A DNA stretch of 64,000 nt from Mesaphorura yosii (Eukaryota > Arthropoda > Collembola > Poduromorpha > Tullbergiidae), in contig WIXG01000186.1 of assembly GCA_009869945.1 (NCBI GenBank), forward strand, positions 92,041 through 156,040, written 5' to 3'. The notes beneath the pieces were generated by a model, which searched no databases, was not told the DNA's origin, and saw only the letters and a list, made by a program, of their open reading frames with translations. The position numbers and the translations under genes were made by a program. How positions within the stretch are numbered: the first letter of the stretch is position 1; the number at the start of each line of letters is the position of its first letter. This document shows positions 5,549-37,745 of the stretch, in pieces.

Positions 5549-8500
5549 ATGAGAGTTTTTACGTCAAGAATGGGATCCATAACCTTCTGTATTTTGTCAA
5601 TCATGATTATAAGTAAGTACGTCTCGCCGGTGCCATTTTAATAATGCATGCTATTTGCGTTGTGGGCTCGAACATGGAAATGTCCAATTACGGCAAGCAG
5701 TAGCGTGCCAAAAATGTGCACTCTTGGCAATGACAGCTTTCCTACAAATTACACGACAAAGAACCCGTCTCAAAATGGAATTTTGCTCCTTGGCACTTTG
5801 ACAACCCAGTAGCTATTCGCAAAAATGAAGATTGCAAATTTTTATGAGGCGCAATTGAAAAATGCACGTGAACCCAAATTTTCTAATTTACGACGAGATT
5901 TTTATGCTACGCGTGGGGTTCGGCAGTAAAACTCCTCACCTTGACCTATTGTCCTTCAAGATGAGCAGTGAACTCAAAACGTTCCACTCCCTGAGTTCGT
6001 GCGGCTAACTACGGAAGATTTCATTGCCTTAATTAGCGAGAGGATGAGTAAAATCGCTTTCTTGAGCATATTCGTCAGTTGTTGAGCAATAAGTCGTAAA
6101 AATGTTATTTTTCAACCCTTTTCCACATGTGGATGCATCTTGCGGTCTATTTTCCGTGTTGCTGGTGGAATACGTGCAGTTTTTCCCCAAACTCGTAAAT
6201 TCTGCTCCGCCAGCATTGCAAGTGTGAATCTGTGGAATGAAATTAACACTTGGTTAAGGTTGATGCAGTAATTACAAGCTTAACGTTAATTTAATTGATT
6301 CCACCCTCAACTCAGCCGGTTCAAGAGCTTACAACTTCAATTCTTTCACCGTATCATAGACAAATTAATCATGCACCCAAGTACCGCGTGATTTTCGCGT
6401 TTTATCTGGTGCCTGATGCGCAGCAGCAATGCTCAACCTATAAAATAGCGTGTGATGAGTAGGAAATGTGCTTTGTAGTCCCGAATGAGCCTCTGACCTG
6501 GTTATTTGACGCGTAAAACGTGTTTGATGGTCTTTAGTGCATTTTTAGCAAAAAATCATTACAAGATCGCATTGTTTTAAGTGAAAGATGAGAAGAAATG
6601 AGTTGCACAACAGTAAACACTTAACCAATACTGGTTAACTCGTTTTCAAGCAAAAAAGCAGGGATCTTCTTCATATCGCAATCGCAGAAGATGCACTGCA
6701 GATGTAGACGTAAGGTTGATCTCGCGGCTGAAATCACCAGTTTATCCCCTCGAAAAGTGCTAATACATCTTGCGTCTTGCAACAGGCTACGTAATTTGAA
6801 GGTAGAGTGGACACGAAGGTGTTATTAATGCAGATTAGATTATCTCCGATACAAGTCGCAGCAGCAACTGCCCAACTGCCCAGTAAATCAAATTCACCAA
6901 TGCAAGAAATTAGGGATGAGCGAGAACAACTTGCGAATGAGTTGTTAGGAGGTTAACAGATGAAATCAGACAGACAGGGTATACAAAATGCACATCAAAA
7001 AGCATGCAGAGAGATGAGTACAAGATAAGAGCACAAAAGGACCAAATGCTAACTGACTTGCACGGCTTGAATTCTTCTTGCAACTTCCAAAATGCTCAAA
7101 TTAATGAATTAATACAGAAAAAGTTCAAAGCTTGAAAATGCACTGTGGTAATATTGGATTCCGTTTCCGTTCCAATTTCTTCCCTTATCGACTGAATCCG
7201 ATAAGATGCGGATGCGAGAGTGCAGATGAAGGGATGGTTGAGGAAGATTCTTCAGCATGATAAGCAATTAAATTATAACCTCGTCGCTCGCCTAATGAAT
7301 GCAAAGCGTATGCGAGCGTGTGTGCATGTATTTAACGCAACGGTTTAATTAGATTTGGGCAGGGCAGGGCAGGGCCGACCCGCAGCCGGAGAGCAGATGC
7401 GCAGCGCATCACAGCGCCTAATGACCTAATAAAGAAACCCAGAGTCCTTTCCTCGAAATTCATTCATTAATCATCAGGTTTTATTTATTTTAGCCATGCA
7501 ATCTGCCACCGCCGCACCATCATGGCCAGAGAGAATGGCAATTGGCAGTCGTAATTGTAATGTAATAACGGCTTCTTCAATGGCAGTGGAAAATGCACAA
7601 TTGAAACGATCTTCCGTTGCAGTTTCAATGCAGCAGCATCGCACTCGAAATCGGGGCCCGTATCGCGATAACCTGAACTGCAGAATGCAATTTGTGCCGT
7701 GCTTAATAAGGTTTAGTTTTTTGGGTTCACATGATTTATAGAGAATTACGTACCAAGGTTGGAGTTGAGTTGGAGTTCAGGCGAGGCCCGTTATGGCTGC
7801 AATTGTGCAGTGCAATTTTGGGTTAGTGTGAACAAACTCCGACCGACCCATTGAAGTAGGCACGAAATAAAGTTACCCCAAATTGCAGAATTGCAGTTTG
7901 TTGAAGTTGGGCCTGAGCTTCTTTCGCAGAGCAAACAACAATTATCATCATGCAACAGTTGTAAACATATCATTGTCATCGAAAACAGCGGCAGGTCTCT
8001 TCTTCTCAGTCGGGCTTCCTCACCACCTCCTGTGATAATGACTTTTGCTTATTTGGGATCATTAGCACAAAAAATTGTAACGCTCCGTTGCACGTTGCCG
8101 ACAAGGGACGTTTACGGCGGCGTTTGCCGATACAATGGCATGGTGGTACTGAAGAACGCAGAAAAATTCAGGAAACGCTGATAAATGCTATCACATTTGC
8201 CATCCGTGACACAATCTGCACCTTTCGATATACGTTCGTTTAGTATGAAGAAATATTAAAAATTTACGGCATTCGCCTTGCGTCAGGTTGGAATCACGGA
8301 AATCAATATTGTTTGATAGGATAGTCTCCAGTCTTGCTTTGATAACACCCAACTATTTAGCTGACTTAAAGTTGTTTTCTGCAAGTACGTGAAAACATGA
8401 AAGATGAAACACGAAGCTTAAAGCTTAAGTACAAATTAATCTTGCTTTTTGCAGTTTGTGCCGTGTGCGTGCGTGAAGAATAGACCATGACCATGCAATG

Positions 8501-14503: not shown

Positions 14504-16661
14504 TTAGTGGTATCTTCCATGCTCGTACGGATTCATGGGGTACAGTTCAGGTAACTTTGCTGACGAGCACATCGTTCCATTGATAAATTTCTTCAGGTCC
14601 GATTTTCGTAGCCAACTTTGGCCGGGAATTTCCTTCACCAACTTATCACGGGTCTGTACAACAATGAACAATGATGCCTCGGTCAAAAGGAGTCAGTCCG
14701 AGTTTAGAAGAGTACATACTCGAGAACAGAAATGGTCCTAGACAATTTAACTCACACGTTCGACCTCCTCCATCACTCTGAGAAGGTTTTTCCCGGCTAA
14801 CTTTTCCATGTCGTGCTCAGTCCAATTCCCGCTTTCGTACAGTGCGGCAAACAAATTCGGGTAGTGGGACACGTCTTCAAGACCTTCTGGAGTCCTACGA
14901 CCAAATTAGCATTGAAACAATTGTAAACGAGATGTCATCTTTTTCCAGTTTGGTCACTTGCTTGTCGCTTCCATCGAAGTCGCTCCCAAGCCCAATGTTG
15001 TTGGCAGACATCATTTTCTTGAGATAGTCCAGTTGGGCTACGAAAATACACGGAGTTACTGGTTAGTCGTCATTTTGTGTATCACTGATAACAATATGGA
15101 CAAGAAAGTACCGACTACGTCGCTGATATTTGCCTTATTTTTCGGGTCGCAGTTCACGAGGGCCGGATAGAAGTTGACCATCACAACACCGCCAGTGTGG
15201 TTCTGAAATTGTCATTTGATGTTTTCTGTTTTCAAAGGTACCTCTTGTTCATTTGACTTGTCATTCATTCAGGATAATTGGCTCACCACCAGCTTCAGTA
15301 TCTCATCTGGCACGTTATGATGATTAAGACAAAGTGCCTTCGCATTTGAGTTTGAGAATATTACTGGAGCCTTCGAAGCTATCAGTACTGCCGTCATTGT
15401 CGCGATGGACGTGTGAGATAAGTCAATAATCATTCCAAGACGATTCATTTCTGTGACGACCTCCTGAAGAAGTCAGTCGGATCAGTCTAAATCAAGTATA
15501 TCGTGTCGAGATTCGCTTAGAGCCATTTTCTTACCTTGCCAAATGGGGACAGGGACATGCCCTCATCAACCGTTTTCAACCTGCTGGAACTGTCAACGAC
15601 TGCGGCGTCCGCCCTAAATCACATTCGAACTTCGAAGACCATCAGAACATTGTGGAAGACTCACCGCACTGAGCGAACTACGAGCTCACCAGGGATTGGA
15701 GCACTTTGCCTGTGTCAAACTCATGAACCGGACCCCCAATTCGTAGTACATTCTTAAAATTCCCAAACTCCAACTTATCGAGTGCCCGCCGCCCACTCCA
15801 ATCAAGCTGGCCAGTTTGTTGTTCTCGACCGCTTCTCTCACTTCTGTAAAAAAAAGTTTCCTAACTTCATACGGAACAAAAAAGGTTACGACCGACACGA
15901 GGACGAGGAAATACGTATTTGATTACCCTTCGCTGAAGTGGCCAACTGCATGTAATCACTGTAATTTGAAATTAGTCTCTTGATTACATCGATTTGTTCG
16001 AGTGTGATTTGAGTCGCGTCTTTGAACTGGGACGACTCGCAGTCGGATCGAGCGACCCAAACCTGAAGTCATAACGAGAGTAAAAGTTTCAGATGACCGC
16101 TATCAGTGAGGAATCCTGACTGACAGTATTTTATTTCATGTGCACCTGAGCTTTGACCTTCCCCGCCTTCAGTTTTACCAAGTCGGTTTGCGCGAAACGA
16201 GATCTGGACCATTCTGGAGGCCCGTCGGACAAGTTTGCTGAGAAGTTGAATCGTGTGAGGTCGTTCGCAGCAAGTTCCCGAACATTCATTGCAAAATCAT
16301 TATGCCTGGTGGTGCATGAAATCAACAGAACATTCGATTTCTCAATAAAGACTTGATTTTCAACAGTTTCTGCTTACCCGTCAAAGAGAATTATTTCGGC
16401 CAGCAGCTTCTCAGCCTTTTGCAGTGGGGAATCGTTATTCCTCGTTGTGAAATGCACAGTGAGCCCAATCACAAGGGTCAATGCTGATACGCTGAAGACA
16501 ACGATGCCAATGAGCTTCAGCAGAGGATTTCCTAAAGAATTAATGAAAAATGAATATGATACACAGCACAGAGTAAAATTATGTCGGATAATTAAGTTAG
16601 CTTTATTACTTTGAAGTTGATAGGAGCACGTGTGCACAGAGCAGTCTCTCCACAATGACAT
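14504..16661 (-). CDS. Membrane dipeptidase-like protein, predicted catalytically inactive
   Basis: Homologue of renal/membrane dipeptidase (peptidase family M19), 455 aa. Exons (5' to 3'): 16661-16610, 16531-16378, 16305-16146, 16062-15927, 15843-15690, 15613-15535, 15463-15287, 15202-15112, 15037-14962, 14894-14756, 14653-14504. A short N-tail is followed by one TM helix (type II anchor), then the M19 barrel. It keeps DGHND, DLSH and GSDFDG but loses key residues: the bridging-zinc Glu of EGGHS is Gly (GGGHS), the His of LTHS is Gln with one extra residue, the zinc His of FSHSSA is Asn, and the substrate Arg of HHRNVPD is His. The intact copy at 20.3-22.9 kb has all of these. The frame is open throughout, so I infer a retained pseudoenzyme rather than a dead gene. 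One intron uses a GC donor. The first exon is less certain than the rest. Confidence 0.85.
14895..14961 (-). other. GC-AG intron in the dipeptidase-like gene
   Basis: The only splice that keeps the M19 frame between the SDFDGSDK and TPEGLEDV segments uses donor AA|GCAAGT. The paralogue at 20.3-22.9 kb has an intron at the same codon and phase with an ordinary GT donor, which supports the reading. Confidence 0.75.
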
Positions 16662-16993: not shown

Positions 16994-19755
16994 TTATTGA
17001 AACATGAATACTGCAACAGTTAAAGCCGCAACAAAATTGAGGCTGCAACCGAGGAAAAAGGTGCCGTCGGACACCGAATCCGGTTGTTTTGTCCTGTACT
17101 CTCTTGGCGAACAGTATCCATTCATGATAGGTTGGGCGGGCAGACCTCTCCTGGTAACAGATGCAAGGTAATTACGAAATGGAAGTCGGTCGTCTTAATG
17201 ATCTTAATTAAAGTAGTAAGGAGTATTGCAATTTTTACCAAAGCATGCGACAGCGTTGCTCGTCGAGTCTCCACATCGCGTCATCCGTTGTACTGGAATT
17301 CATTTTACTCCAAAGCCTTTCAGCAACTGCGTTCACGAAAGGGAAGAAGCGAGGTACGACGTTTGTGTTGTCAACGAATTCACTCCAAATTGCTGCCTCG
17401 CCTCCAAGTATCAACTGGATCTGATCCTCTGGGAGTTCTGAATGCAATTCTAAATAAAATACATAAAATGAAGCCTACATGTCTCACTGGCACTAACATT
17501 GCAGAAGTAACACACCTTCTTCGAGGCTCAGTACCGGATCACACTCGTAGTACTCTCTCCACGTTGGACCATAGTTTATGTAATTCAAATACCAACAGGA
17601 GGAAAGCAATACATTGTGACCCAAATCTAGAGCTTTCTAAGGAAAATAGGCACAGACATGGCGAAGCTAAATTACTGAAACTGAAACTGGAGGCTTTTTG
17701 TAAAATTATCCTAGCAGTGGTACCTTAAAATAGTATTGCCATCCATCCGACTTCCAAACCTGAACAACTACATCCTGATCGAGCTGAAAATTAGAAGAGA
17801 TAGAGATAATGTCAGCGCTCTGAGCTGCATGCTGTTGTAATGGTACTGAGTCATATAATGCGCTAAATTCATATGATACCTCAACTCCATAATCCAGCGG
17901 ATCTTGCCATACAATTCGCTTCGCTCCGAGACCCTTCACCATTTCCAAGTGGATATCGCTGTAGTGCTTTAACACTTGTGAATAATTCTCGTAGCCATGC
18001 ACCTCCATGAAGGCAGCTATTTCCGGTGATGACTCCCAGCAATAGTAGTAAACCTGCGGGAGAAAAAAGCAGTGTCAACTTTAGTATCAGCGGATCAAGG
18101 AAGGAACAACTCACTTGGAACATTTTGCCGGAAACAATTTACTTGAAACGATTTGCCGAGAACGAATCTCTTGGAATAATTCTCTGGAGACAATTTAATT
18201 CGAATATCTCTCTGGAAACAATAATTTCCTCGGAACAATCCTCTACAGATAAAGCTTGTTCTAACTTTGGAAGAATTAATACCTTATAAGACATTGCTTG
18301 ATAGAAAACTCGGGGGTTCTAGACTTCGAGTCTGTAAGGGTATTATCACTTCCCTGGTTCTAACTGTACAGATTACAGATCCGAACTATTGAACAAACCT
18401 CATCCATTCCAAGATGCAAATACTCGTCCTTTATCACGTCGTTGACAATTTCGGAAAACAAGTCTTTCATAAACTCGTACGTGAAATTTTCCATTGGGTT
18501 CAATATTTCGTACGGTCCATGCCCGATGTAGTCCGGAGGCGGGCCGTAGTTTGGTGTCCCAGGCTTCCCCTCTTCTCCGTAGCATGGAGTCAGCAATTCT
18601 GGAGGCATACAAAAGCTGGATACGTTAGCCAACAGGATTTAAGTCGAAAGTATTGATTTCTGTCTTTCTACCTGGAAATGCTGCTCCAAACGCGAGTGTG
18701 TGGCCGGGTGTGTCGAATTCCAAAATGACACGGATGCCTCGCACTCTCGCTTCTTCAATAATATATTGAATAGTGCTTGGAGAGTATTCCAATTCGCCCG
18801 GAATGTAGGCAGCCTACAAATGGAAAAACTTGCTTCGATGGGGCGAAAGAATTCAGTATAACAAGTTCAGTAAATCCGAACCTTCTCGGAAAGCGTCGGG
18901 AATTTCGTAGACACGAATGGAAAGCTCTGGTCGTCAATTATGTGCCAGTGCAGAACGTTTAATTTGTTGTAGCTCATTCCGTCTAGGATCTGCAGAATGA
19001 CATCTGGAGCTAGGAAATGTCTGGCTGTGTCAATCATCAGGCCTCGGTGAGGAAATCGAGGCCAATCTGAGACATGAGTCACGTTCACGTAGTAGTGCAT
19101 CGCTTCAGCTTCCGGGCGTTTCCTCCAAAGGAGCTGGCTAAAAGTTTCAAGCCCGCGCAACGCTCCCCACACGCTGTGCGCAGAAATTTCTGCTTTCGGA
19201 TCGCCATTGTTGTCAATTGAGACGGATACATTATCTGAAGAGCAAAAATGCCTGATTTCAACCTGTAGAATAGTCTGGCTTGGGAGTAACTACTCACAAC
19301 GCTCATCGCTGTCCAGAGTCGGGTAAGAATTGCACTGATGATTCTGGGAGTCAGCGGGAATAGTAATTTCCACGCTGGACAGCACGGGCAGGCTCGCGTC
19401 TGGCACTACTTTGTCATGCAGAAGCTGGGTCATGCGATAGCGACTCCCAATTGCGAATGTCAACGGCTTGCAGTCACCAACGCTCACTTTGTACTGAAAA
19501 TTGTCTGGCGAATCAATCGCAATCAATTGCTCCGTCGAGATTTGTAACTGTGGCAGTGGCCAGAGACTTCCTGGTGGAGATGGACTCCCCTAGGGCGAGA
19601 ATATTGAGTTCAAATTACGGGACTCACAAGCGGCAAACAACTAACATGCTTACCGGCAGCGGAACTCTCGTCGCGAGTGGAAACAGATATCCGAATGCCC
19701 CTTTGTACAGAATCAATTGATAAATTACAACTGCGAACCAAGCGCGAACCTCCAT
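16994..19755 (-). CDS. Beta-N-acetylhexosaminidase (GH20), possibly GPI-anchored
   Basis: Glycoside hydrolase family 20 enzyme of 603 aa that removes terminal beta-GlcNAc/GalNAc from glycans. Exons (5' to 3'): 19755-19654, 19589-19298, 19234-18882, 18813-18672, 18598-18399, 18053-17880, 17783-17724, 17636-17516, 17449-17239, 17150-16994. It has a signal peptide, the GH20b N-terminal domain, then the barrel: [13 protein letters not shown] (substrate Arg), [20 protein letters not shown], catalytic Asp-Glu in [17 protein letters not shown] and [15 protein letters not shown]. The usual HxGGDE is changed to HLGMDE next to the catalytic pair. The last about 20 residues are hydrophobic and end at the stop, which suggests a GPI signal or C-terminal membrane tail, unlike lysosomal HEXA/HEXB. 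It lies between two dipeptidase paralogues on the same strand. The family is certain; subfamily and location are inferred. Confidence 0.93.
18098..18245. repeat. Degenerate short tandem repeat inside a hexosaminidase intron
   Basis: About nine imperfect copies of a 13-20 bp unit of the form GGAAACAATTT-n-CTT follow one another, for example at the 18120s, 18130s, 18170s and 18210s. They fill much of the 345-bp intron 18054-18398. No coding potential is seen. Confidence 0.6.
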
Positions 19756-19789
19756 TTTGACGAAAGAGCCGTGAGCCTTGTTGGGTTTA

Positions 19790-36449: not shown

Positions 36450-36572
36450 TGTGAATTGAAATTGAAATTTAAACTAGTTCAAGAGTAGATTGTCCAAACA
36501 GACACCAAAATTTTCTGTTTTTCGAGACGAATTCTTTTCTGTTCCCGAAACTGTCGTATTCTGAGACGAAAC

Positions 36573-37745
36573 TTGACACCTTCCAGTTCAGGCGAAAAAA
36601 ATTATTACTCACATGTCAGACATTTCCTTCTTTTTCTTTGTCGAACCCGCAATTATCAAAGACCACCACATCAAGATGGTGCTGAAGGAGTTGCTGCATC
36701 AGTTCAAAGATATTTATCACCTTATGATGCTGATCTTTTTAGAAGCAGAACCATTATGTTTGATGATTCAATTGCAACCGCTTTAAGAGAATGGGCATTG
36801 GCTCACATTTTTACTGATTCGCTGTTACTTGGGACAACAACCAGCACTTTATTGATTGGAACATCCGGAATTAGTCAAGTCCTCCAAACACTTGGGGATC
36901 GTTCGGCAGTCAATGGATTCACACAACCCTCGCTCATGGACCTGAAAGCACAATCGACTAATACACTTTTAACAAAATTGAGCTCCTCGAAAATGACTGA
37001 AGCATTGGCAGAGCTGACTGATACCCTGACTTATTTACAACAAAAATATTTTGATGGTTATCAACTTAAAGTAACTGGTCACTCATTGGGTGGACTTATG
37101 GCTGAATTGTGTGGTGTGAAAGCTGGAGCAGAATGTATAACTTTTGAATCACCTGGTGCTCTGGAAATCCTCCGATCTCTTACGCAGTACAATGACATTC
37201 CAATTAATGTCATTTCTTTCTTATCAGCTCCAAACTTGATCAATATGTTAAATGAACATCCTGGGCAAATGTATCGGATGATGATTCCACATTCAAGGCA
37301 AACCAGAAATGCGAAACATCTCGCGCGTTGTGTTTTGCAATCCGCCTCAACTTCGACCCTAGGAGCAGCTGCAGTGGTGGGAGTAACTGCATCACTGACA
37401 CCTGCAATTGGATTGGGTCCAGCGATAGGAGTCGGAGTGAGTGCTGTTGGAACTACAATTGGAAGCTGTGCCGTTGACATGTGGCATGATCTGGATTGGT
37501 TAAAAGTTCAACATTCCATAATAAGCATTGTCGAATTTTGGCGGTCACCTGAATCAGTAACTGTCCAAATCGAAGCATGGCCAAAAGTAAAGTCAAAAGG
37601 TAAACTATTTCGAAATTGGTTAATCAAATTTGTACCATTTCGTGATGATCAACCTGGAATACGTACATTTATTTCGGGTGAGAATGAAATGCGTGAAAGG
37701 CAAATACAACGTTTGAGTGGGTATCGTGAAATTGGAAATGTTTGA
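36573..37745 (+). CDS. Single-exon class-3-lipase-like alpha/beta hydrolase
   Basis: An open frame of up to 391 codons with no intron. It holds the nucleophile elbow TGHSLGG (Ser at 37083-37085), followed by ITFESPGA and SAPNLINMLNEHPGQMYRM, a layout typical of Lipase_3-type alpha/beta hydrolases. A glycine/alanine-rich hydrophobic stretch (about 37360-37470) follows, then a basic C-terminus. Substrate is unknown. No ATG precedes the protein-like N-terminal part; the first in-frame ATG is 36756, and the frame is open upstream to 36489. Either a small upstream exon supplies the start, or the N-terminus is truncated. Third codon positions are clearly A/T-rich (18 of the first 25 codons after 36756), unlike the collagen next door. 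A poly(A) signal follows. Lack of introns, composition and bacterial/protist-like lipase architecture suggest horizontal or retro-acquired origin; this is inference. Confidence 0.7.
   Translation: MTPSSSGEKNYYSHVRHFLLFLCRTRNYQRPPHQDGAEGVAASVQRYLSPYDADLFRSRTIMFDDSIATALREWALAHIFTDSLLLGTTTSTLLIGTSGISQVLQTLGDRSAVNGFTQPSLMDLKAQSTNTLLTKLSSSKMTEALAELTDTLTYLQQKYFDGYQLKVTGHSLGGLMAELCGVKAGAECITFESPGALEILRSLTQYNDIPINVISFLSAPNLINMLNEHPGQMYRMMIPHSRQTRNAKHLARCVLQSASTSTLGAAAVVGVTASLTPAIGLGPAIGVGVSAVGTTIGSCAVDMWHDLDWLKVQHSIISIVEFWRSPESVTVQIEAWPKVKSKGKLFRNWLIKFVPFRDDQPGIRTFISGENEMRERQIQRLSGYREIGNV

Follow-up and report, generated by a model that had tools for sequence, protein, structure and literature searches.

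Gene A, a peptidase family M19 (membrane dipeptidase) paralogue of Mesaphorura yosii, has changes that are concentrated in the active site, and the dipeptidase activity of its protein has very likely been lost, judging from the residues replaced. We analysed the gene in a window of 64,000 nucleotides, in which it runs from 16661 to 14504 on the minus strand. The explanation that we favour with moderate confidence is that A would encode an M19 ectodomain with a type II membrane anchor, folded as a dipeptidase barrel but unable to hydrolyse dipeptides, and retained as a surface protein without catalytic function. Within this explanation the loss of activity is well supported, the fold is likely, and the role is what we infer.

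Gene models, membrane anchor and M19 paralogues

Gene A was modelled as 11 exons that splice to exactly 455 codons plus a stop, as the earlier sequence-only reading had proposed, with zero stops inside the frame. PF01244 (Peptidase_M19) matched the spliced model over profile positions 2-319 of 319 with 330.6 bits (E 1.3e-98; cut-off 26). This full-length match above the curated cut-off places A in family M19 by homology. The renal dipeptidase structure 1itq scored 291 bits against the A protein. DPEP1 (1itq, 9h0b) was the nearest solved structure by sequence, and DPEP3 (6vgo) was next; we take PDB 1itq and 6vgo to be human DPEP1 and human DPEP3, respectively.

Gene B (22903-20338, minus strand; 450 codons) matched PF01244 with 392.6 bits. 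It retains all ten active-site positions that we tested, with Phe at 255, and is evidently the intact neighbour that had been placed at 20.3-22.9 kb. A GH20 beta-hexosaminidase gene lies between A and B at ~17000-19760 on the minus strand, and two of its exon fragments match PF00728. Splice sites of A and B were read off the sequence alone, and the exon models are therefore predictions. Nine of the ten modelled introns of A are GT-AG and one is GC-AG. The exon structures of A and B had been described as near-identical. Introns 1-8 are indeed common to both genes; beyond these, one intron is found only in B and one 3′ intron only in A. The GC donor belongs to intron 9 of A (14961-14895, minus strand), which has the same position and phase (2) as intron 10 of B. 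Here the exon end GACAA is followed by GCAAGT, and GC thus replaces GT in an intron whose position is conserved. Donors of introns 3 (GTGCAC) and 8 (GTACTT) of A look weak, as do some donors of B.

A membrane anchor was predicted in exon 2 of A (16531-16378, minus strand), in agreement with the sequence-only reading. The highest Kyte-Doolittle mean over 19 residues was 2.49, starting at residue 21, and the C-terminal region reached a maximum of only 0.07. DPEP1 is GPI-anchored. The GPI-type hydrophobic C-terminal signal of mammalian DPEPs was absent from A. Both A and B have a hydrophobic N-terminal stretch and a C-terminus without a hydrophobic tail, an arrangement that suggests type II membrane proteins and not GPI anchoring. 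N-glycosylation motifs number 7 in A, where ~3.1 are expected; the corresponding counts were 4 against 2.0 in DPEP1 and 4 against 1.9 in DPEP3, so that the ratios are similar. We take the disulfides of DPEP1 to involve four cysteines, Cys71, 154, 226, and 258. Cysteines aligned with 71, 226, and 258 are present in A, and so is 154, with an offset of one column caused by an insertion.

A PF01244 profile search of the genome (93.0 Mb, 1127 contigs) gave at least 25 exon matches, which correspond by coordinates to at least six genes. Three contigs carry two of the six each, always on the minus strand; those other than A and B are here called C303a, C303b (L010+L011), C1a (L012), and C1b (L013). 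Hydrophobic N-terminal exons occur also in C1a, C1b, and C303b. Each of A, B, C1a, C1b, and C303b has a C-terminal cysteine in its tail, which we take to be a putative equivalent of the DPEP1 dimer cysteine. A tree of 21 rows, with 10 of the 80 bacterial loci described below among them, grouped A with B (support 95/92) and DPEP3 with DPEP1 (94/93).

Active-site residues of gene A

Residue numbers are those of DPEP1, counted on the 1itq alignment. We take the two-zinc ligands of DPEP1 to be H20, D22, E125, H198, and H219, with E125 as the bridging ligand and, from DPEP1 work, H219 as one beta-site ligand. H152, R230, and D288 are presumably the catalytic and substrate residues of M19 dipeptidases, and H152 and R230 presumably bind the transition state and the carboxylate of the substrate. 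Each of these eight residues was invariant in 80/80 bacterial relatives, the best 80 of 575 confirmed relatives. Since the intact B served as query, this panel is biased to intact enzymes.

Four of the eight residues are replaced in A, and all four replacements, which the sequence-only reading had listed, were found on alignment to the M19 structure 1itq. Among the zinc ligands, E125 is replaced by Gly (GGC; 15793-15791) and H219 by Asn (AAC; 15352-15350), whereas H20 and D22 in the motif HNDFAM (16304-16287) and H198 (15415-15413) are kept. Among the catalytic and substrate residues, H152 is replaced by Gln (15712-15710) and R230 by His (CAT; 15319-15317), whereas D288 (14981-14979) is kept. 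The change at H152 is accompanied by one inserted residue, so that LTHSC becomes LTQAKC (15712-15704). As the alignment is drawn, the inserted residue is Lys at 15706-15704; it adds 3 bases in frame and sits ahead of the conserved Cys. A is 44.8% identical to DPEP1 over aligned columns and shares its four cysteines, but DPEP1 has the full catalytic set and A is without E125, H152, H219, and R230.

Two further changes go beyond those already listed. W25 in HNDFAM is replaced by Met (W in 71/80 bacterial relatives), and position 255 is Leu (15160-15158; Phe in 70/80 and Tyr in 10/80). W25M and Leu255 say little on their own, because GliJ also differs at these positions (Tyr at 25, Leu at 255) and its other eight listed positions are intact. 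If the residues have the same roles as in DPEP1, A would have lost the bridging ligand together with one zinc ligand of the beta site. The residues for the transition state and for the carboxylate of the substrate would be altered, and so would the pocket positions W25 and 255.

Targeted loss, maintenance and decay

We compared the changes of A at catalytic positions with those at other conserved columns by one-sided Fisher tests. At columns where the other five M19 paralogues are unanimous, A changes 4/7 standard catalytic positions and 26/125 others (p 0.047). With W25 and 255 included, it changes 6/9 active-site positions and 24/123 others (p 0.0045), although both positions were added after they had been seen to be changed. 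A further test used the columns at least 95% conserved in a panel of 85 presumably active sequences, namely the 80 bacterial relatives, two DPEP1 sequences, Sco3058, B, and C303a; here A changes 4/8 catalytic and 8/63 other sites (p 0.024). DPEP3 gave a similar pattern on this panel, with 4/8 catalytic and 6/63 other sites changed (p 0.011). These findings indicate that the loss in A is concentrated in the active site.

The rest of the protein has also changed faster than that of its sister. At non-active-site unanimous columns A is changed in 24/123 and B in 10/109 (p 0.04); the remaining four paralogues gave 8/107, 6/105, 4/103, and 0/99, values that are lowered by close sisters in the reference set. 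The A branch is the longest of the six genes in the tree (1.19, versus 0.34 for B). Constraint on A may therefore be partly relaxed, given the faster change at other conserved sites.

Simulations by mutation only (1000 runs from the B sequence) gave an expectation for stop codons. After 58 replacements the mean number of stops was 2.8, and none appeared in 6% of runs; after 100 replacements the values were 4.9 and 0.5%, and after 151 replacements 7.1 and 0.1%. The figure of 58 is the number of columns, out of 326, in which A differs while B equals C303a, and it is therefore a lower bound. In a codon model of 326 ungapped columns, omega = 1 on the A branch was rejected (LRT 9.4, p 0.002), but dS was saturated. 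Omega of A did not differ from the background (p 0.72), again with dS saturated. Fitted values were 0.015 or 0.034 for A, depending on the model, and 0.037-0.038 for the background; because of the saturation they are not estimates. The A-branch omega combines the periods before and after loss of catalysis, and with synonymous change saturated the codon-model tests are weak and cannot separate the two. A retained fold and frame of A are nevertheless supported by the 455 codons without a stop, by 55/63 panel-conserved non-catalytic sites kept, and by the rejection of omega = 1 despite saturated dS. A maintained non-catalytic role is no more than plausible.

The faster change in A bears on an alternative that we consider unlikely, namely that constraint has relaxed on A as a redundant tandem copy, which is heading to a pseudogene and has an open frame since the decay is recent. 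The long branch, the 24/123 changed columns, the GC donor of intron 9, and the weak-looking donors of introns 3 and 8 are all consistent with decay, and the 6% of runs without a stop after 58 replacements is by itself too common to exclude neutrality. However, weak-looking donors occur in B too, and A differs from B at 216/418 aligned residues and yet has zero stops, an in-frame insertion of one residue, and usable intron ends. The concentration of changes in the active site and the rejection of omega = 1 over the A branch, although dS is saturated, also argue against decay. An artefact of sequencing, of assembly, or of the gene model is hardly credible as the source of the changes. The sequence comes from a single assembly, but six substitutions spread over four exons together with a 3-base in-frame insertion, and no frameshift or stop, argue against such errors. 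A DNA search of the species' own genome assembly for a second haplotype of A matched only the copy in the window, which likewise speaks against an artefact.

The residues that A keeps raise another alternative: A could still be a hydrolase with a changed substrate, working with a one-metal site formed by H20, D22, D288, and possibly H198. Because H20, D22, H198, and D288 remain, A may still bind metal, and a single ion might be coordinated by H20, D22, and D288. Mononuclear enzymes are known in the amidohydrolase superfamily. One example, molinate hydrolase, has Asn in place of an alpha-site His and an uncarboxylated lysine, and is active with a single metal. That metal, however, occupies the beta site, where both His ligands are present, and activity is abolished when residues of this site are changed to alanine. 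A is without one of the two His that match this beta site by motif order, and H152, R230, and W25 are altered as well. We regard a one-metal hydrolase as distinctly unlikely.

Evidence for a catalytically inactive, retained surface protein thus consists of the active-site concentration, the full-length PF01244 match, the lack of stops, the rejection of omega = 1, the conserved cysteines and intron ends, and the known precedents. Evidence against it consists of the faster change elsewhere, the saturated dS, the two post hoc positions, and the retention of H20, D22, H198, and D288. The ectodomain of such a protein would lie outside the cell. There it might bind a ligand or another cell, as DPEP1 has been reported to do as a neutrophil receptor. 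Alternatively, the M19 dimer surface and the C-terminal cysteine might allow A to pair with its active sister B. The sequence-only reading had suggested a new non-catalytic role such as binding or adhesion. Its premises held, with loss of activity strongly supported by the residues and retention of fold and frame supported; binding or adhesion itself is only plausible. Among the sequence features of A that we examined, none pointed to adhesion, which is therefore left as one possibility among several.

Comparison with DPEP3 and the D288G paralogues

A is of a kind already known, because human DPEP3 is a precedent: like A, it is an M19 protein in which several catalytic positions are lost. The DPEP3 structure paper describes it, by its title, as lacking dipeptidase activity. 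A and DPEP3 are both altered at W25, H152, R230, and 255. At four other positions they are reversed; DPEP3 has H198 replaced by Tyr and D288 by Asn and keeps E125 and H219, whereas A keeps H198 and D288 and has lost E125 and H219. In DPEP3, changes at the D288 and H198 equivalents reportedly explain the inactivity. A is predicted to be anchored at its N-terminus and does not end in a hydrophobic tail, unlike DPEP3, a mammalian DPEP that is reported to be GPI-anchored. The tree places A with B and not with DPEP3, so that A does not qualify as a DPEP3 orthologue, and its origin seems to be separate. Among the papers listed in a search of the literature on M19 pseudoenzymes and on DPEP1 active-site residues, none was to the point by title and abstract.

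The separate origin, the loss of the complementary half of the metal site, and the three paralogues with D288G go beyond a routine case. If A is maintained, it would be an independent counterpart of DPEP3 in which the metal site lost a different half, while the four further altered positions coincide. Comparison of the two would reveal which elements of the M19 fold persist when catalysis goes, and thus which surface could carry a non-catalytic role of the type reported for DPEP1. The presence of active and altered copies in one genome makes this comparison testable.

Loss of an invariant residue is not confined to A. D288 is absent from 3/5 of the other M19 genes: C303b, C1a, and C1b have Gly at this position (codon GGA in each), with GAG instead of GGD in the motif GIGAG[YF]DG. 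These three are M19 genes with a hydrophobic N-terminal exon and an altered catalytic residue, like A; unlike A, D288 is the only one altered of the ten tested positions, the nine others being intact with Phe at 255. They form one clade (support 97/95). On the 85-sequence panel each changes 1/8 catalytic sites, against 3/63 others in C303b (one of the three being a gap where its model starts), 9/63 in C1a, and 6/63 in C1b (p 0.39-0.72), and thus they show no concentration of change in the active site. Omega for this clade was 0.048 versus 0.012 for the rest (LRT 10.1, p 0.0015), with dS saturated. Gene B differs from A in another way; it is the sister of A, with eight common introns and a predicted N-terminal anchor, and its ten tested positions are intact with Phe at 255. 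Given D288G in three genes and the losses of A, B and C303a are the only two of the six M19 genes in which all ten positions are intact when Phe is allowed at 255.

Because A keeps D288 and groups with B, the simplest reading is that the losses of A and D288G would be two separate losses. Altogether 4/6 M19 genes have lost residues that are invariant in 80/80 bacterial relatives. We raise only tentatively the idea that the M19 family of this species has mostly turned into non-catalytic membrane ectodomains, four of six genes by two separate routes, forming a set of receptors or regulatory partners around two remaining active enzymes. One route would have been taken by A through the bridging ligand and one beta-site ligand, and the other by the C303b/C1a/C1b clade through D288. 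The N-terminus of C303a (L009, ~7609-8087) has a signal-peptide-like start followed by a long Ser/Gly-rich stretch, and no simple anchor. Elsewhere in the window, a stop-free stretch of 418 codons on the plus strand (36489-37742) has a weak match to class 3 lipase (PF01764, E 4e-05).
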